Virus record (IMG/VR): IMGVR_UViG_3300023245_000040 | Span: 1-38,540 of that record | Length of the DNA: 38,540 nt | Reading direction: 5' to 3' (one strand) | DNA from: a virus | Shown: positions 7,046-34,455 of the stretch, piece by piece | Position numbering within the stretch: the stretch's first letter is position 1 | Layout of the letters: every line of letters starts with the position of its first letter | Notes under the pieces: generated by a model | Told to the model about the DNA's origin: nothing | Databases searched by the model: none | The model's input: only the letters and a program-made list of their open reading frames with translations | Made by a program: the position numbers and the translations under genes

Positions 7046-7056
7046 ATTATTTATAA
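7046..7056 (+). promoter_or_regulatory. Candidate late promoter element ATTATTTATAA
   Basis: An exact 11-base ATTATTTATAA ends 15 bases before the ATG at 7072. Identical copies precede the genes starting at 20027 (minus) and 23011 (plus), in the gene's own orientation, at 17 and 11 bases. The function is inferred from recurrence; a transcript start is not visible. Confidence 0.5.
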
Positions 7057-10809: not shown

Positions 10810-10820
10810 TTATAAATATT
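10810..10820 (-). promoter_or_regulatory. Candidate late promoter element, one mismatch
   Basis: Read on the minus strand this is AATATTTATAA, one base from the exact ATTATTTATAA found before three other genes, 14 bases before the ATG at 10795 and in the same orientation. Confidence 0.4.
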
Positions 10821-20044: not shown

Positions 20045-20055
20045 TTATAAATAAT
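20045..20055 (-). promoter_or_regulatory. Candidate late promoter element ATTATTTATAA
   Basis: Exact 11-base match on the minus strand, 17 bases before the ATG at 20027, in the same orientation as the gene. It is the same element as at 7046-7056 and 22989-22999. Confidence 0.5.
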
Positions 20056-22988: not shown

Positions 22989-22999
22989 ATTATTTATAA
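22989..22999 (+). promoter_or_regulatory. Candidate late promoter element ATTATTTATAA
   Basis: Exact 11-base match, 11 bases before the ATG at 23011, in the gene's orientation. Third exact copy in the window. Confidence 0.5.
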
Positions 23000-25007: not shown

Positions 25008-25150
25008 ATGTGAACTACCCACGCACGGCAGAGCCGCTACTGTGAGCTTCATGTGTCATAACTCCAACTAGTGTTGGCAGCTCTACATGATTTTTCCTAT
25101 CAGTCCCTGATAAGATGTCTTTTAGGGCGAAAGATTTGATGTTGACAGCT
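25005..25150 (-). ncRNA. Putative omega RNA (reRNA) of TnpB, approximate limits
   Basis: In the IS200/IS605 family the guide RNA of TnpB is made from the 3' end of tnpB and the right end of the element. Here that interval holds a compact stem CGGC-TCT-GCCG (25026-25036) followed by GTGCGTGGGTAGTTCA and the junction with AT-rich phage DNA. The scaffold would end near 25008-25012 and the next ~16-20 bases of phage sequence would be the guide. Limits are inferred from family knowledge, not seen. Confidence 0.4.
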
Positions 25151-26196
25151 GCGTTGACATCTCTGTCGTGCGTCACGCCACAACTCCCACAAGTCCACTC
25201 TCGGTCTGCTAGAGTCATTCCCTTATGGATATGTCCACAGTCCGAGCAAGTCTTCGAGGAGGGCGCAAATCGACCTATTCGAAGGATGTTTTTACCTCGC
25301 CATTCTGCCTTGTATTCCAGCATCAAAACAAAAGTAGACCAACTAACATCGGCAATTGCCTTGGCTAAGCAGTGGTTTTTCATCATATTTTTCACTGCAA
25401 GTGTCTCTAAAGCAATCGTTTGGTTATCGCTGATTAGCTGATTAGAGGTTTTATGCAGGAAATCTTTCCTTTGGTTTACCACCTTTTCATGTAGTATAGC
25501 AAGACGATGTCTTCTCTTCTTGCCTTTATGTTTTGAGTACCTATTTTGCGTATACGCAAGCCGTGACTTCATCTGGCTCAGATACTTTGGGTTTGCAAAG
25601 ACATCTTGGTTTGAAGTCACTACAAAGTCCTTGATCCCTAAATCCACTCCTACTGTCGTGCTGGTGGTGATCGGTGCTTTCTCAGGCGCTTCTGTTTGGG
25701 TGTCCACCAAGATCGACACGAAGTACTTGCCAGTAGATGTTATGCTGATGGTTGCGCTTCTGATAATACCTTTTATCTCTCTGTGAAGGACAATTGGAAT
25801 ACCTTTCTTTTTAAACTTGGGTATAATAAGCTCGGACTTCTCTATGTCCAACATGACGTTCTGAGGGACGTGGAATGACTTTGCTCCTCGATGCTTGGAT
25901 TTAAACTTTGGAAACCCACCCCCTTTCCAGAACTGTTTGAATGCAGCATCCATGTTTTGAATGGATTGCTGTAGTGTTTGTGAGTTAATCTCCTTCAGCC
26001 AAGGATAATCCTTCTTCAGTTCTGGTATTTGTCTGTTTAAATCAAAATGAGACAAATTATGCTTTGTACCCAGATAAGCCAAATTTTTTGTCTCTAAAGC
26101 AAGATTATATATCCACCTAGCGCTGCCAATATGCTTGGCTATCAGCTCCTTTTGAAGCTCGGTTGGTTTGATTCGGTATTTGTATGCTTTATACAT
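25015..26196 (-). CDS. tnpB: TnpB, RNA-guided nuclease of IS200/IS605-type element
   Basis: The 393-residue protein has normal TnpB length and all expected parts: N-terminal YKYRIKPTELQKE (OrfB_IS605 helix-turn-helix), FPKFKSKH near 95-102, and the RuvC acids D185 (GVDLGIKD), E264 (IALETL) and D346 (HDRDVNAA). The zinc ribbon is C317-x2-C320 and C336-x2-C339. Nothing is missing, so the nuclease should be active. TnpB uses an RNA from the element's right end to cut DNA next to a short target-adjacent motif, which helps the element persist at its donor site. No tnpA is present. TAG stop at 25015. A resident phage gene cluster appears to have been interrupted by it. Confidence 0.93.
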   Translation of the reverse strand: MYKAYKYRIKPTELQKELIAKHIGSARWIYNLALETKNLAYLGTKHNLSHFDLNRQIPELKKDYPWLKEINSQTLQQSIQNMDAAFKQFWKGGGFPKFKSKHRGAKSFHVPQNVMLDIEKSELIIPKFKKKGIPIVLHREIKGIIRSATISITSTGKYFVSILVDTQTEAPEKAPITTSTTVGVDLGIKDFVVTSNQDVFANPKYLSQMKSRLAYTQNRYSKHKGKKRRHRLAILHEKVVNQRKDFLHKTSNQLISDNQTIALETLAVKNMMKNHCLAKAIADVSWSTFVLMLEYKAEWRGKNILRIGRFAPSSKTCSDCGHIHKGMTLADREWTCGSCGVTHDRDVNAAVNIKSFALKDILSGTDRKNHVELPTLVGVMTHEAHSSGSAVRG

Positions 26197-28640: not shown

Positions 28641-29106
28641 AAAGATAGAAGAAATTAAAGATTTTGACAAATTTGTAGATGACATCTTTGAAAGACAAGA
28701 CATCAGAAACCAGATGTTTGAAAACAAACAAATGCTTTATGCAGCACTAGATAATTTAGGAAACTTTAAATACTTAAGTGAATCTTGGAATAAATGTTTA
28801 GATTTTACCCAAGAAGAATTCCAAATAGTTCCTTTTACTGTTTTTTTACACCCAGATGATTTAGAAGAATCTTTAGATGCTTTTGAGTTTTTTAAAAAAT
28901 TCAAAAGACCTGCTATTAAAATGTTTGCAAATAGATACCGAAAAAGAGACGGAGAGTACGCCTTAATTCAATGGTTCGAGCCAATATACTCAAAAGAAAC
29001 GAAGCTTTGGCTGTTTACCGCTTTTGAAATACCAGAAGGTCACAAAGGAATGTGCTTGTACAATGAAGGGTATGTTCCTTTTAAATGGAAAGGGAAGAAA
29101 CTATAA
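28627..29106 (+). CDS. Stand-alone PAS-like domain protein 2, 159 aa
   Basis: Residues ~40-140 give a clearer PAS pattern: LDNLGNFKYLSESWNKCLDF, then F-LHPDDLEESL (the typical 'HPDD' helix), NRYRKRDGEYALIQWFEPIY and LWLFTAFEIPEGHKG. The ending parallels the upstream paralogue (ENGAKGITVL versus EGHKGMCLY). It starts inside the previous gene (14-base overlap), so translation is coupled. No output domain is fused. Its stop overlaps the convergent GIY-YIG gene by 6 bases. A host-signalling mimic is one idea, but no direct evidence is present. Confidence 0.7.
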   Translation: MIEIKKIEEIKDFDKFVDDIFERQDIRNQMFENKQMLYAALDNLGNFKYLSESWNKCLDFTQEEFQIVPFTVFLHPDDLEESLDAFEFFKKFKRPAIKMFANRYRKRDGEYALIQWFEPIYSKETKLWLFTAFEIPEGHKGMCLYNEGYVPFKWKGKKL

Positions 29107-29421
29107 GTCTTTTACAATCTTGTAATTTGATTCATTAAATAAACATTTTTCTTGAAATCCATAAACCTCTTCAAGACCTAAATAAAACCATTCCCCACGA
29201 AGAGGTACGCCATTTGCATCTTCTTTGTTTGAAGACAGACTTCTGTGAATAATGCCTTCTACCTCATAAGCATAAGGAGTAGAAAAAGAATCAATAATTT
29301 CTATTTTGTATGGACATCCAACTTGAATGTTAAGAAGCCTTATTTGAATGCCTTTATTATCAGTTACGCCTATTTTATACAAAGAAGTCTCTTTAGAGCC
29401 AATTAAGTAAATACAATTCAT
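29101..29421 (-). CDS. T5orf172/MUG113-type GIY-YIG domain protein, 106 aa
   Basis: The protein opens IYLIGSKETSLYKIGVTDN, the GIY-YIG equivalent of the T5orf172/MUG113 group (Y5 and Y15), followed by RLLNIQVGCPYKIEII, E54 in YEVEGIIH and the EWFYLGLEEV ending that marks this family. Such proteins are small predicted nucleases found in phages and in mobile or restriction-like genes; many are free-standing. It could be a homing-type or host-DNA-degrading nuclease. It is alone on the minus strand, convergent with the PAS-like pair, and divergent from the gene at 29492. Confidence 0.75.
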   Translation of the reverse strand: MNCIYLIGSKETSLYKIGVTDNKGIQIRLLNIQVGCPYKIEIIDSFSTPYAYEVEGIIHRSLSSNKEDANGVPLRGEWFYLGLEEVYGFQEKCLFNESNYKIVKDL

Positions 29422-29468: not shown

Positions 29469-29479
29469 ACTATTTATAA
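29469..29479 (+). promoter_or_regulatory. Candidate late promoter element, one mismatch
   Basis: ACTATTTATAA differs by one base from the ATTATTTATAA element and ends 12 bases before the ATG at 29492, in the same orientation as the other copies. Confidence 0.42.
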
Positions 29480-29743: not shown

Positions 29744-30252
29744 TTCCCTAAGCTAACTGTCACATAATCTTTAAAGTCTTCAAAAACAGCCCCTAGAAGG
29801 TCTAACAGAGTAATAGGGGACGATATCTTTTTATCTTTATTTGTGAAACCAAACTCGTCATGCACTAAAACTTTATTGCTGATACTAACAATTACATCTT
29901 GGTAACCTTCTGTAGCGAAGTCTTTTTTAACGGTTCTTATCTTAGGTATAAAAATTAAATCTCCTTCTGAAGAGATTATCAATTCCTTATAAATAACTAT
30001 TTCTGAAATAGGCTCTACAACTAATCCTGATGAAACAAGCGTGTTTAGAGCATCATACTCTTCTAAGAAATAATCTTTAACAAACCCTTTTAAATGAAAT
30101 AACACGTTCATTAGTTCACTAAGAGTTAACTTATCTTCCAAGAATATTTGCTCAGAAACAGAGGCAAGTAAAAAATCCCCTACTTGATTGTAGGGGATTT
30201 TTAATTCTTGATTCTCAAAACTAATCTTTCCCTTTTTTTGTATTTGTACCAC
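29737..30252 (-). CDS. Hypothetical protein, 171 aa, overlapping the clp gene end
   Basis: Not recognised. The 171-residue acidic protein has alternating strands and helices (LTLSELMNVLFHLKGFVKDY in the middle) and no membrane segment. Its start at 30252 lies 32 bases inside the 3' end of the ClpC-like gene, so the two are coupled. Unusually, a strong terminator-type hairpin lies inside its early codons (30171-30202), so its transcription may be attenuated. The first in-frame internal Met is near residue 48, so the true start may be a non-ATG codon after the hairpin. Confidence 0.5.
   Translation of the reverse strand: MVQIQKKGKISFENQELKIPYNQVGDFLLASVSEQIFLEDKLTLSELMNVLFHLKGFVKDYFLEEYDALNTLVSSGLVVEPISEIVIYKELIISSEGDLIFIPKIRTVKKDFATEGYQDVIVSISNKVLVHDEFGFTNKDKKISSPITLLDLLGAVFEDFKDYVTVSLGNH
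30171..30202 (-). terminator. Strong intrinsic terminator inside a coding region
   Basis: AAAAATCCCCTAC and GTAGGGGATTTTT form a 13-bp perfect stem with loop 30184-30189. On the minus strand the GC core is preceded by an A-run and followed by TTTTTT (30170-30175). It lies 19 bases past the ClpC-like stop but inside the first codons of the 171-residue ORF. The symmetry allows action in both directions. Confidence 0.75.
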
Positions 30253-32407
30253 TTATTTTTATTTTTTTACTTCTCTTATCATAAGAGACTTTTATTTTAT
30301 CTTCACGAGATACATCTCCATTAATTAATGCATTTGATATTTCATTCTCTACATACTGAGTAATAGCTCTCTTTAGAGGTCTAGCTCCGTATTTTTCATC
30401 AAAACCTTTTTCTGCAACAAGAGTTCTAACAGACTTATCAATAACTACATCCATCTTCTGATCTTTTTTGAGTCTTTTAATCATATCTTCGATTTCTATC
30501 CCCACAATCTCTAGCGCATTCTCCTTAGATAAAACATTAAAGACTATCTTCTCATCTATTCTGTTAATAAACTCAGGAGCAAACTGCTTCTCTAATTCAG
30601 CAAACACTAACTCTTGAACCTTTTCACCCTTAAAAGTTTCATCTTGAGAAGAAAAACCTAATGAATTAGACCCGCCTGAAACAATTTTATTAGTTCCAAT
30701 GTTTGAGGTCATTATAATTATGCAATTCTTAAAATTCACCTTACTTCCTGTGGCATCAGTTAAGTGGCCATCATCAAGAATTGATAAAAATAAATTGAAA
30801 ACATCTCTATGAGCTTTTTCTATTTCATCAAAAAGAAGAATTGAATAAGGTTGGTTTTTTACTTTTTCAGTTAACTCTCCTTTTTCTTCATGACCCACAA
30901 ATCCGGGAGGCGCTCCGATTAGCCTAGTAGTAGAGAACTTCTCCATATACTCAGACATGTCAAATCTAACATAAGCATCATCTCTATCAAACAAATACTT
31001 AGATAACTTCTTTGCTAAATGAGTTTTACCTACACCAGTTGGTCCTAAAAACAAAAAGGAAGCTGGCTTGTTAGGGTTTTGAATCCCCAATCTAGAACGC
31101 TGCAAAGCAAGAGCAACCTTAGCCACTGCATCTGACTGACCTACAACTTGACTCGATAGGATATCTTTAATTTTAGACATTCTTTCAGTCTCAGAGTCCG
31201 TAAGCTTATCTAGAGGTATATTTGTATGAGAAGAAATAACCCTAGCCACATCTGCCATAGTTACAGGTTTTCTTTTTTTGTTAAATTGTTCCTCCCATTT
31301 TTCTGTAGACAATTTAAGAGCAACTTCGATTTCTTTTTGACTATCTCTAAAAACAACAGCCTCTTCATATCTTTGGGAATCAGAAGCTTTTTTCTTTTTT
31401 GCTGCCATTTCTTGTATCTTCTCTTTCATATCAACGATATGAGCAGGAAGTTCAATTGCAAGTTTTGCCACAGAACCAGCTTCATCCATAATATCAATTC
31501 CTTTGTCTGGGAAGTTTCTGTAGTTTATATATCTACCTGAAAGATTTACAATTTCTTGAATCACTTCATCAGAATAAGAAACTCTGTGATGATCCTCATA
31601 TTTGTATTTTATTTGATTAAGAATCTGATAAGTCTCTTCCTCACTCGGAGCAAGTAAAAGAACTTTTTGAAACCTTCTAGCTAAAGCCGTATCGTTCTCA
31701 ATTGTTTTCTTGTAGTCATTCAAGGTAGTTGCTCCAATACAAGTTATCTCTCCTCTTGCCAAGATAGGCTTAAGAATATTCGCTGCATCCATTGAACCCG
31801 AAGCTGAACCTGCACCCAAGACCATATGTATCTCATCAATAAAAACAATTATATCTGGATTTTTTTTCAATTCCTCTATAATAGCTTTCATTCTCTCTTC
31901 AAACTGACCTCTATATTTTGTTCCTGAAACAATATCTGTGATATTCAGTTCTACGATTCTTTTATCATGCAACCAAGGGTCTGTATCTTTCTTTTCAATA
32001 CGAATAGCTAAAGCTTCAGCAAGAGCTGTGTTGTGAGAAAGAATCCCGTTCGTATAATATCTGTGATTTGTGTCGTCTGATAATTCAAAATCAAACATAG
32101 TCTCTTTAAAACCTAAACTACACATCGAAAAAACTTCTTCAACACCATCTATTGTAATAACTTTATCTCCCTCTGACAAATCCTTAACATAAACCTCCTC
32201 TAAAGAAGAGTTAAAAACTAAATGGTTATCTGCACACCTAATTTCTTTTCCACTCTTTAAAAGAAGATGATAAACCTCATAAGGAATAGTCTCATGCAGC
32301 TTATCTGCCTTCTCAAATCCATTGTCAGTTAATATACTGTAATTTTCTAAATTTATAGTATTAATAAATTTCTTCAACCCTAAATCTTCTACTTCTACTG
32401 CTTCCAT
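30221..32407 (-). CDS. Split-intein C-fragment fused to C-terminal part of ClpC-like AAA+ unfoldase
   Basis: Residues 1-126 are an intein C-fragment: block B GKEIRCADNH (H62), LSEGDKVI, block F MFDFELSDD, and the terminal GILSHN (H125, N126), followed by the +1 residue T127. From T127 the sequence is a Clp/Hsp100 ATPase: TALAEALAIRI completes Walker A of the first AAA+ ring, Walker B is D191-E192, and the arginine fingers are R244-R245. The middle domain is short, with a ClpC-like QRYEEAVVFRD motif (345-355). The second ring has Walker A GPTGVGKT (455-462), DE 527-528, R616 and GAR sensor 2 (676). NSLGFSSQDE (581-590) fits a ClpP-docking LGF loop. The matching N-part is at 33964-34386. Without trans-splicing, the first-ring P-loop is incomplete. 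Confidence 0.93.
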   Translation of the reverse strand: MEAVEVEDLGLKKFINTINLENYSILTDNGFEKADKLHETIPYEVYHLLLKSGKEIRCADNHLVFNSSLEEVYVKDLSEGDKVITIDGVEEVFSMCSLGFKETMFDFELSDDTNHRYYTNGILSHNTALAEALAIRIEKKDTDPWLHDKRIVELNITDIVSGTKYRGQFEERMKAIIEELKKNPDIIVFIDEIHMVLGAGSASGSMDAANILKPILARGEITCIGATTLNDYKKTIENDTALARRFQKVLLLAPSEEETYQILNQIKYKYEDHHRVSYSDEVIQEIVNLSGRYINYRNFPDKGIDIMDEAGSVAKLAIELPAHIVDMKEKIQEMAAKKKKASDSQRYEEAVVFRDSQKEIEVALKLSTEKWEEQFNKKRKPVTMADVARVISSHTNIPLDKLTDSETERMSKIKDILSSQVVGQSDAVAKVALALQRSRLGIQNPNKPASFLFLGPTGVGKTHLAKKLSKYLFDRDDAYVRFDMSEYMEKFSTTRLIGAPPGFVGHEEKGELTEKVKNQPYSILLFDEIEKAHRDVFNLFLSILDDGHLTDATGSKVNFKNCIIIMTSNIGTNKIVSGGSNSLGFSSQDETFKGEKVQELVFAELEKQFAPEFINRIDEKIVFNVLSKENALEIVGIEIEDMIKRLKKDQKMDVVIDKSVRTLVAEKGFDEKYGARPLKRAITQYVENEISNALINGDVSREDKIKVSYDKRSKKIKISGTNTKKGKD

Positions 32408-32447: not shown

Positions 32448-33908
32448 TTAATTCTGAATGAAATTTAAACACCTTTTTATGACTTCTTGTTTTGAGTTTT
32501 TGTAATCATTCTCACAAATATGTAAAACTTCGTAACCAGAACCTATTATATCACTATCTCTTTGTTTTTCTCTTTTTTTATTTTCTGAAGTTCCTCTGTG
32601 AAAATAAACACCATCGAACTCTATTATCTTACGTTTGTTTTCAATGAAAAAGTCTGGTAAAATAAATGTTTTTTTCAAAGGTAATCTAAACTCATGATTC
32701 TTTCCGCTTTTATCAATAGACTTACTGTTTTGGTCAAGTTCAGCAAAATAAATTATGTTTTCATTTATAAACTCTTGACTTAAATTACCAAAGACCTCCC
32801 AAAACATTCTTTGTGACACTTGACTAAAATTACTTTTCTTGTAAGATAAAGCCCATTTTTTTTGTCTGTTTAACCAAATCTCTCGACCCTTTTCCTCTCC
32901 GTGCTTTGCAATACATTTTTCCAACGAAAATGTTGACTGCCTCTCCTTATACTTCTCCTCCGCTTCCTCTAAAGTATCACACTTGTTAACCCAATATTGT
33001 TTTTGGGTTTCTGTGAAAGCAGAAAAAAACCAAGGTTCAGTCTCTCTTCTACTGTGTAGTTTGTTGGAATTTATTTTTTGTATAGAGGCTATCTTATTTT
33101 GAATCTCCTCACCACTTAATTCCGCGTCCTTTAACAACCAGTACTCTTTCGAATACATCGTGTTTTGACTAACTTTAATCTTTGCCTCTTTTTCATCTAA
33201 ACCAAAAAGTTCCATGTAATACTGAGTGGAATTTAAAGCCAATTTTGACAACTTAATTTTAACTTTGTCAACTTCCTCTATAGATTTCTCATACGACAAT
33301 CCCTCTAACAACCAAAAACCTTTTTGATTCCTCGCTTTTAAGTTAATTCTATCATTTTTAGATAAGAAAATACTCTCTGACAAAAACGCCAACTGCCTTA
33401 TAGAGACTATCTCCTTATTATGAGAAGCGCACTTGTCATTTGAACACTCCTGAATTACGTAAGATTCAATTAAAATATCAAACTTTAACTTGCTTTTACA
33501 TAAATTACACGTAGGCTCTCCTTTTTGCTTATAACTAAACGACCCATACGAAAAATCATTCTCATTTTCATCGCTTATTTTTTTTGCCCCCTTCGTATCT
33601 CTTCGTTTTGAAACCCATAAACTATGCTCATCAACCCCATAACCTCTCTCTAACCAAAAATCTAACTTAAATGCAGACCTGTGCTTAAAACCAAATTGCT
33701 TTACAACCCTCCACCCTAATGTTGTGAGTTTTGTTTTTTCATCTAACTTAGATAATTCACTATACACAGTGTTAAACTTCTCCTCCAAAGACTCAGTGTT
33801 TATGAAATCGCTTTCTTTTTTCACAAAACCCCTTAACGAATTCACGTCAATAAAGTATTCGTTAAACTGGTAATAGTGTATTCCTTTGTTTTTCTCTACA
33901 ATAATCAT
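32448..33908 (-). CDS. Free-standing Vsr-like (EDxHD) homing endonuclease
   Basis: The 486-residue protein has a C-terminal Vsr-like nuclease: E406, D419 (LPDFF), IIEFDGVYFHRG (E430, D432, H437) and QRDSDI (D451/D453), ending in GYEVLHICENDY. This is the motif set of the EDxHD family typified by I-Bth0305I. A zinc finger (C134-x2-C137, C155-x4-C160) and repeated helical motifs such as SLEKCIAKHGEEKG (328-341) probably bind DNA. It lies between the two halves of the split-intein ClpC-like gene, 54 bases after the N-half and 40 before the C-half, the fractured-gene arrangement. It would recognise the uninterrupted Walker A coding site in rival phages and spread the whole cassette. A 32-bp palindrome abuts its ATG. 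Confidence 0.88.
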   Translation of the reverse strand: MIIVEKNKGIHYYQFNEYFIDVNSLRGFVKKESDFINTESLEEKFNTVYSELSKLDEKTKLTTLGWRVVKQFGFKHRSAFKLDFWLERGYGVDEHSLWVSKRRDTKGAKKISDENENDFSYGSFSYKQKGEPTCNLCKSKLKFDILIESYVIQECSNDKCASHNKEIVSIRQLAFLSESIFLSKNDRINLKARNQKGFWLLEGLSYEKSIEEVDKVKIKLSKLALNSTQYYMELFGLDEKEAKIKVSQNTMYSKEYWLLKDAELSGEEIQNKIASIQKINSNKLHSRRETEPWFFSAFTETQKQYWVNKCDTLEEAEEKYKERQSTFSLEKCIAKHGEEKGREIWLNRQKKWALSYKKSNFSQVSQRMFWEVFGNLSQEFINENIIYFAELDQNSKSIDKSGKNHEFRLPLKKTFILPDFFIENKRKIIEFDGVYFHRGTSENKKREKQRDSDIIGSGYEVLHICENDYKNSKQEVIKRCLNFIQN

Positions 33909-33939
33909 TTTCTTCTATTTATTAATAAATAGAAGAAAA
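33908..33939. repeat. 32-bp perfect palindrome at the homing endonuclease start
   Basis: The left arm TTTTCTTCTATTTATT meets its exact complement with no loop base, giving 16 perfect pairs centred between 33923 and 33924. Its edge touches the A of the endonuclease start codon, so in mRNA it would bury the ribosome-binding region; in DNA it could be a dimeric binding site. Confidence 0.85.
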
Positions 33940-33963: not shown

Positions 33964-34386
33964 CTAGGAGATGGGAAGAGTTTTAACAAAGTCCTCCACA
34001 GAGATTTCTGTTATTTTTCCAGTAATATCGTTCCTTAAAGTTACTAGAGATTCTTTACAAAAACATTTACCGATGCCCGGTTCTCCGATAATGATTGGGT
34101 TGTTTTTTTTTCTTTTATTTAGAATCTGAATAACCATATCCAACTCTACGTCTCTTCCAATAACAGGGTCAAGTTTACCTTGTTTTGCAAGATCAGTTAA
34201 ATCTCGACTAAAGCTATCTAGAGCTTGAGTTTTAGATTTTTTAGAACTCCTTCCACTTCCACTACTCTTTCTTCCTCCTAAACCTTCGCCTTCTTCTGGA
34301 AACTCTCCATCTTCTTCAAAAGCGTTTTTTGGCGAATTAAAGATTAAATCTTTATCGTCTTTGTTTTCTTCGTTCATTTCGTTCAT
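33964..34386 (-). CDS. N-terminal part of ClpC-like unfoldase fused to split-intein N-fragment
   Basis: From ATG 34386 the protein is 140 residues. It has an acidic, Gly/Ser-rich region, then [20 protein letters not shown] and [20 protein letters not shown], the start of a ClpC/ClpB first AAA+ ring, ending GEPGIGK. The next 33 residues are an intein N-fragment: C1[12 protein letters not shown] then [14 protein letters not shown], with a stop. The extein junction is K|C, inside Walker A; the matching fragment continues with T. A longer TTG start at 34413 is rejected because that TTG is part of the promoter -7 box (34411-34418). The Clp N-domain repeats of bacterial ClpC are absent. This is not a frameshifted pseudogene: both intein halves have their motifs. 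Confidence 0.9.
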
Positions 34387-34410
34387 TTGTATTATGATTT
34401 TTTCACCCTT

Positions 34411-34441
34411 CAAATGTAGTAAAAAAACCTAAACAAACCAA
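34411..34441 (-). promoter_or_regulatory. Bacteroidota-type promoter for the fractured clp locus
   Basis: On the minus strand TTG (34439-34441) and TACATTTG (34411-34418) are 20 bases apart, matching the TTG-N19/20-TAnnTTTG form. Transcription would start near 34404 and give a short leader before ATG 34386. Confidence 0.7.
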
Positions 34442-34455
34442 AATAAAGGTTTTTT
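34422..34455 (-). terminator. Intrinsic terminator after the 67-aa gene
   Basis: AAAAAACCT and AGGTTTTTT (34422-34430, 34447-34455) form a 9-bp stem, followed by a T-run on the minus strand. It overlaps the stop of the 67-residue gene and the clp promoter, so it insulates the clp locus from genes upstream. Confidence 0.55.

Follow-up and report, generated by a model that had tools for sequence, protein, structure and literature searches.

A start-codon hairpin as probable translation timer for the endonuclease of a fractured ClpA-like gene in a virus

The longest palindrome in a 38,540-nt stretch of viral DNA (IMG/VR record IMGVR_UViG_3300023245_000040, referred to below as the window) ends at the start codon of an endonuclease gene that lies between the two parts of a ClpA-like gene. 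We consider it probable that this palindrome serves as a translation timer for the endonuclease, the timing being read from computed folds and promoter-like elements. The original prediction had proposed an expression logic of the T4 type, with a hairpin that silences the gene on early transcripts and a late promoter placed inside it, and this logic is broadly supported by RNA folding, by related loci and by calculated opening energies. The palindrome is real, and the first interpretation of it was mostly right except for the promoter.

The palindrome belongs to a minus-strand operon in which an ORF for the N-terminal part of a ClpA-like ATPase (assigned through phrog_4871) is followed by the endonuclease and then by an ORF for the C-terminal part:
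33964-34413, minus strand: N-extein and 33-aa N-intein of the ClpA-like gene, with the likelier start at ATG 34386
32448-33908, minus strand: free-standing endonuclease ORF of 486 aa with a C-terminal Vsr-like / I-Bth0305I-like nuclease domain
30221-32407, minus strand: 126-aa C-intein (32030-32407) and C-extein of the ClpA-like gene

The first Walker A motif, GEPGIGK, closes the extein of the N-part, and the next 33 amino acids start with Cys, while the opening 126 amino acids of the C-part end in HN and are followed by TALAEAL. The C-intein part can be aligned with seven others, and it is 52 and 56% identical to two of these in locus L083. Separate ORFs encode the two intein parts at a single extein site, and a free ORF lies between these two. 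The locus is thus a fractured gene whose intein is split close to its beginning (33 + 126 aa), and such a split intein would predict putative trans-splicing of the Clp halves at the protein level. Among the Clp relatives found in viral contigs (80 kept of 232), the same junction is uninterrupted in 78 of 80; the L053 gene is interrupted three residues earlier, and the L080 sequence does not reach the junction. Uninterrupted alleles, putative targets for cleavage by the endonuclease, are therefore present among the relatives. Fractured genes with intein halves at the break and a free endonuclease between them were reportedly described by Dassa et al. in 2009. Those with endonucleases of the I-Bth0305I type share the two-part gene, the intein halves and the free endonuclease with our locus, which differs from them in the split near the intein start, the start-codon hairpin and the putative phage late element.

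Two split inteins interrupt the Clp gene of locus L083 (463-6158), at both of its Walker A motifs. This locus also has remnants of an endonuclease, a leftover start hairpin (at about 2930-2968) and a gene that we take to be DNA methylase-like; a full-length endonuclease ORF is absent. In L178 (1666-7071), a single Clp gene has two split inteins together with two endonucleases that differ from each other, and a helix covers the start codon of each. In related loci, split inteins lie right after the GK of Walker A motifs, both in Clp and in many other ATPases, which by their motifs we presume to be TerL-like, helicase-like and others. At the C-side junction, read without a demand for GK, almost all rows have T or S first behind HN or SQ (L174:208, with CGKTAIVEGL, is an exception, as is L053). 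One intein-endonuclease lineage may thus be specialised on P-loops, a reading to be taken with the fact that the N-side search demanded GK and was hence biased to it. Elsewhere in the window, positions 25015-26196 encode what is presumably a TnpB/OrfB-like protein, and positions 29101-29421 a T5orf172 GIY-YIG protein.

The C-terminal end of the endonuclease gave weak matches to DUF559 and MTES_1575. Its predicted fold (pLDDT 84, pTM 0.45) was informative in the fold search for residues 358-486 only. I-Bth0305I, a Vsr-like homing endonuclease of the EDxHD type, was the best match in the fold comparison (Z 11.0 over 93 residues, 2.5 A), tied with the putative endonuclease-like protein 3hrl (Z 10.4) and followed by Vsr (Z 9.0). 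Foldseek ranked 3r3p first with E 0.02 and returned zero matches at E <= 0.001. On the structural model, the endonuclease is thus predicted to have a Vsr-like catalytic fold. A single-sequence search for endonuclease relatives in viral contigs confirmed none.

The palindrome and its computed RNA fold are located as follows:
33908-33939, minus strand: perfect 32-bp palindrome, equal to its own reverse complement, with an arm of 16
33939-33926 (5' arm), 33925-33922 (loop) and 33921-33908 (3' arm), minus strand: RNA stem of 14 bp with a UUAA loop

With its last base, the palindrome reaches into the start codon of the endonuclease, at the A of ATG (33908-33906, minus strand), and a gap of 24 nt separates it from the N-part stop codon. 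Sixteen loopless pairs had been described at this ATG; they hold for the DNA, and in the RNA they become 14 pairs closed by a loop of four nucleotides. The runner-up among loopless palindromes in the window has an arm of 8, and 60 windows simulated with a first-order Markov model gave maximal loopless arms of 7 to 11. The 32-bp sequence occurs once in the viral record, and a search of viral contigs for the exact palindrome gave no match and found no close relative of it. The folding energy of the hairpin alone is -12.9 kcal/mol. A 71-nt context reaches -14.0 kcal/mol (z -3.0, with none of 200 shuffles equally stable), and its centroid structure also pairs the AUG. When the start is folded over -50 to +25, the frame common to all genes, z is -2.8 and one of 100 shuffles is as low. 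The proposal that a hairpin over the endonuclease start would hide the translation start is thus borne out by computed folding. Because an inverted repeat 3' of a stop codon may also be a transcription terminator, here between two cistrons, we weighed this reading and consider it extremely improbable: the palindrome lacks a G+C core, no T run follows it on the minus strand, termination at this point would also remove the Clp C-half, and the repeat behind the C-part, by eye a likely terminator, looks different:
30171-30202, minus strand: inverted repeat with G+C, T-ended on both strands, directly after the C-part stop

As part of the analysis of related loci, profile scans yielded 158 new loci from the best 80 of 172 endonuclease matches and the best 80 of 164 C-intein matches, overlapping or near-identical loci included. 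Among all loci collected, which comprise the window and a partial copy of it, 168 have either domain and 138 have both. Filtering of 147 ORFs with an endonuclease domain, by which duplicates, ORFs of <80 codons, overlapped ORFs and starts <=80 nt from a contig end were dropped, left 82 distinct starts; each frame was taken to begin with its first ATG, a doubtful choice for some loci (L090, L141). The region from -50 to +25 was folded, with 100 dinucleotide shuffles each, for these starts, for 108 C-intein ORFs and for 605 other genes. A start hairpin with z < -2 was found for 22 of the 82 family endonucleases, compared with 5/108 C-intein ORFs and 54/605 other genes. Divided by the gene interrupted, such hairpins precede 17 of 21 Clp-type endonucleases vs 5 of 61 others, in a grouping made after the hairpin counts had been seen (a 22nd Clp-type row, L205, lies outside the 82). 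Collapsing a near-identical clade of ten to one leaves 8/12 Clp-type endonucleases vs 16/175 genes of the same loci (p 8e-6); this and other p-values are nominal, since the Clp-type class and the motif were picked after looking at the data. The Clp-type exceptions without a strong hairpin are L207 (a shortened gene), L210 and L213, and L178:2542 is borderline (z -1.9), although a helix of 12 bp extends over its AUG.

Related fractured loci had been named as the place where the palindrome should be sought. The hairpin does recur there in Clp-type loci, whereas 56 of the 61 family endonucleases in other fractured genes lack a strong one, so that the start hairpin is not general to the family endonucleases and is confined mostly to Clp-type loci. 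Its absence from those 56 and the AT-rich flanks would suit a chance or drifting palindrome without a role, but an arm of 16, set against at most 11 in the simulated windows, and the hairpins found at the equivalent site of Clp-type relatives make that account exceedingly unlikely. A helix of at least 10 pairs reaches the start region in 16/21 Clp-type relatives vs 42/605 ordinary genes. This preference for the start region, and a stem that holds the candidate late element described below, which processing would not need, argue against a repeat acting mainly in RNA processing or stability, for example as an RNase III site. We regard such a role as quite improbable, even though the 14-bp stem lies where the cistron of the Clp N-part gives way to that of the endonuclease. 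Pairing of the AUG in the best fold was discarded as a criterion, being uninformative (true of 348/605 ordinary genes).

The location of the hairpins is constant and their arms differ: compared without gaps over 43 positions, eight hairpins agree at 13 to 27. Of the 144 pair cells in the clade that can be aligned, 138 hold standard pairs and 6 are unpaired; one pair is changed on both sides, and 10 one-sided changes all give G-U, the only way to stay paired. Covariation in this clade does not exceed that of shuffles (280/500 reach it), and we therefore rejected it as proof of the stem. These data bear on the reading that the repeat is a DNA operator: a dimer, either the endonuclease or another one, would bind it and repress its own promoter, in the manner of I-TevI. 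A perfect DNA palindrome overlapping a candidate promoter would fit an operator; I-TevI is reported to be both hairpin-controlled and an autorepressor (PMC2988022), and I-Bth0305I is described as dimerising on DNA (PMC3943268). In the relatives, however, the hairpin is kept and the sequence is not, the ten one-sided changes preserve the RNA pair while breaking DNA symmetry, and some hairpins have long loops or internal mismatches. We consider the operator unlikely as the main explanation, and a second role of this kind alongside the hairpin role is possible.

Two sets of endonucleases (L183, L097 and L194 vs L190, L179 and L174) have a near-identical hairpin and approximately the first 260 residues in common, whereas their catalytic domains are unlike, a pattern that points to domain swapping. 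Between both sets, DNA identity starts ~60 nt before the ATG, near where the N-inteins, whose tails are unlike, reach their stop codons. The hairpin thus seems to move together with the endonuclease gene as a module. Independent origins of the hairpin had been considered from the nuclease tree and were dropped: two of its deep branches have almost the same hairpin because their genes share the N-terminal part and differ in the catalytic domain. In addition, an element TATTTAT lies inside an ATG-reaching hairpin of two genes that are not endonuclease-like (L194:5151-5789, minus strand, and L213:5589-6008).

Two promoter-like elements are found within the palindrome:
33924-33931, minus strand: TATTTATT, candidate late promoter element at -23 to -16 of the endonuclease ATG, in the 5' half of the repeat
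33916-33923, minus strand: AATAAATA, the promoter of the original prediction, at -15 to -8, in the loop and 3' arm

AATAAATA is indeed present on the coding strand, but it was rejected as a promoter, since T4-like spacing would put the RNA start at about the AUG. TATTTATT at -23 appears to be the likelier late element, its position suiting a promoter whose RNA, with a modelled start, would lack the 5' arm; by the symmetry of the palindrome, TATTTATT is also present on the other strand. Of 32 listed gene starts in the window, none has an exact TATAAATA in the 45 nt upstream, and five have an exact TATTTATA at -20 to -26, to be compared with TATTTATT at -23 of the endonuclease. The five sense matches are:
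7048-7055: -24 of gene start 7072
22991-22998: -20 of gene start 23011
29471-29478: -21 of gene start 29492
10811-10818: -23 of gene start 10795
20046-20053: -26 of gene start 20027

Searches gave no identity for these five genes; their neighbours include baseplate genes. With one mismatch allowed, the contrast vanishes (TATTTATA in 10/32 vs TATAAATA in 13/32 window genes), so the case within the window rests on exact matches and position. TATTTATA is outside the 25 top-ranked upstream 8-mers of the window, and ACTATTTA is among them.

Before 901 other genes of Clp-type loci, an exact sense element starting at -30 to -15 is TATTTATA in 77 cases and TATAAATA in 22, and the corresponding numbers for 316 genes of non-Clp loci are 1 and 7. 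An element with <=1 mismatch to TATTTATA starts at -27 to -18 of 18/21 Clp-type endonucleases vs 25/175 other genes (nominal p 4e-11), or 9/12 with one per clade (p 1e-5); it is missing from L207 and the two L178 genes. Exact TATTTATA by itself shows no enrichment (3/21 vs 13/175), and exact TATTTATT does (13/21 Clp-type endonucleases vs 6/175 other genes). TATAAATA / TATAAAATA initially seemed enriched before endonucleases (22/82) and was set aside as the late element, given that TATTTATA suits the ordinary genes of Clp-type phages better by the above counts. For some other phages (L212, L219), TATAAAATA may be the element in use. Three non-Clp endonucleases (L219:758, L219:4888 and L212:2905) have TATAAAATA or AATAAATA within a start hairpin and may follow the same plan with a different late element.

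In Flavobacterium phage immuto, exact TATTTATA lies within 70 nt of 6/17 structural-labelled genes (terL, portal, a tail spike, a tail fiber, sheath and tube) and of 0/13 replication or nucleotide-metabolism genes, both counts being from a hand-picked list. The major capsid gene of this phage has no TATTTATA, and the element also precedes some further genes, hypothetical ones among them. We also searched nine records for Sigma70_r2 and found it in four, which are the only Clp-type viral contigs of >90 kb among them (L249, L250, L251 and L252); it was not found in immuto (a 160-kb record) or in four shorter contigs. One example is:
L251:1354-2244: sigma-70-type factor, ORF of 296 aa

By its distribution, TATTTATA is a candidate late promoter of the phage that is also present in immuto.

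We calculated the cost of opening positions -12 to +12 on a long RNA and on a late RNA, the latter beginning at a modelled site:
33918 (-10), minus strand: late transcript start placed at T4-like spacing after TATTTATT

For the endonuclease in the window, the cost falls from 13.3 kcal/mol on the long RNA to 1.9 kcal/mol on the RNA from -10. The 21 Clp-type loci average 12.3 on the long and 2.0 on the late-start RNA, with the start set at -10 for the three loci without a late element, compared with 5.0 and 2.3 for 26 other genes that have one; the difference on the long RNA has p 8e-7, or 2e-4 with one per clade. By the same method, T4 I-TevI goes from 13.8 to 1.8 when AATAAATA at -31 (in the 5' arm) is taken as the late promoter, the same calculated switch as here. 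T4 I-TevII has 14.4 on the long RNA and 9.5 or 3.9 on the late RNA, depending on the element. Seven other T4 starts range from 3.8 to 17.0, the highest being denA (endonuclease II, which is not a homing enzyme), and three homing genes stay well below it (mobE 5.7, mobC 8.3 and the defective I-TevIII 6.2). In Flavobacterium johnsoniae, initiation is reported to depend on start-region structure and on A at -3 and -6, in mRNAs without Shine-Dalgarno sequences (PMC6847099). The endonuclease start has A at both positions.

The Clp gene itself looks early. The Bacteroidetes host promoter is given as TTTG/TANNTTTG, refined to TAHHTTTG (PMC6847099), and the window contains eight distinct two-element matches of this type, two of them close upstream of genes. 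Both are TACATTTG matches, starting 32 and 42 nt upstream of the Clp N-part and a single-strand binding protein gene, respectively. The former is:
34411-34442, minus strand: Bacteroidetes host-type promoter match, TTTG ... TACATTTG, before the Clp N-part, candidate early promoter

TAHHTTTG occurs within 80 nt of 34/67 distinct Clp starts vs 59/619 control ORFs (Fisher p 4e-15), the controls being mechanical ORFs of >=110 codons. TATTTATA shows the opposite preference, with 1/67 Clp starts vs 90/619 control ORFs within 40 nt (Fisher p 1e-3). Since TATTTATA is also found at -107 of the Clp start in the window, and 33/67 Clp starts have no host-type element, Clp might also be made late.

Taken as a translation timer, the palindrome would work in the following way. 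The fractured Clp operon would be transcribed early from the host-type promoter at 34442-34411, a site seen in the DNA whose activity is presumed, and the gap between the N-part stop and the palindrome is so short that the RNA should continue into the endonuclease. On this long RNA the repeat is computed to fold, burying leader and start codon, and ribosomes would be barred from starting. Late in infection, the phage element TATTTATT would start an RNA at about -10; without the 5' arm, this RNA would form no hairpin, and its A-rich leader (ATAGAAGAAA-AUG) would be open. Both Clp halves could thus be made early and the cutting enzyme late, with hairpin and promoter travelling with the endonuclease gene as a single module. 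Such a delay may limit toxicity, the purpose put forward in the original prediction.

Hairpin control has been reported or predicted for T4 intron endonucleases, SegB and Aeh1 MobE, where a hairpin is described as hiding the translation start on RNAs from early promoters and the RNA of a late promoter as lacking the 5' arm (PMC2988022, PMC3014915). The early long RNA of the T4 lysozyme gene e is likewise described as folded and poorly translated and the late RNA as open (PMC3014915), although gene e is not an endonuclease gene. By analogy, our case would work like the timers of T4 I-TevI, I-TevII, I-TevIII and SegB and of Aeh1 mobE, with the timing here deduced from sequence. It differs from these timers in nuclease family, host signals and promoter: the T4 and Aeh1 enzymes are encoded in group I introns or free-standing and are of GIY-YIG or HNH type, whereas the present enzyme is Vsr-like and lies between split-intein halves, among Bacteroidetes-type signals, with an element like TATTTATA and not TATAAATA, in hosts thought to be independent of Shine-Dalgarno pairing. 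A literature search by title and abstract gave no report of a start hairpin with a late promoter on a split-intein endonuclease.

We tentatively suggest, at somewhat less than even confidence, that the hairpin and a late promoter specific to the phage (TATTTATA, which a phage sigma factor may read) form a recurrent, exchangeable timer of the endonuclease genes that lie in split-intein loci of phages with Bacteroidetes-type signals, and that such timers were shaped more than once toward the solution seen in T4 introns, each with a local late promoter. Should split-intein loci share this control, late timing would be a general need of selfish endonucleases and not a peculiarity of T4, as the nuclease family and the promoter would both be different and the hosts independent of Shine-Dalgarno pairing. 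In T4, the protection of intron splicing is one reason given for the late production of the endonuclease. Since inteins leave no RNA in need of protection, split-intein loci can tell this reason apart from the plain harm of early cutting. The analysis also yields a candidate late promoter for T4-like phages of Bacteroidetes.
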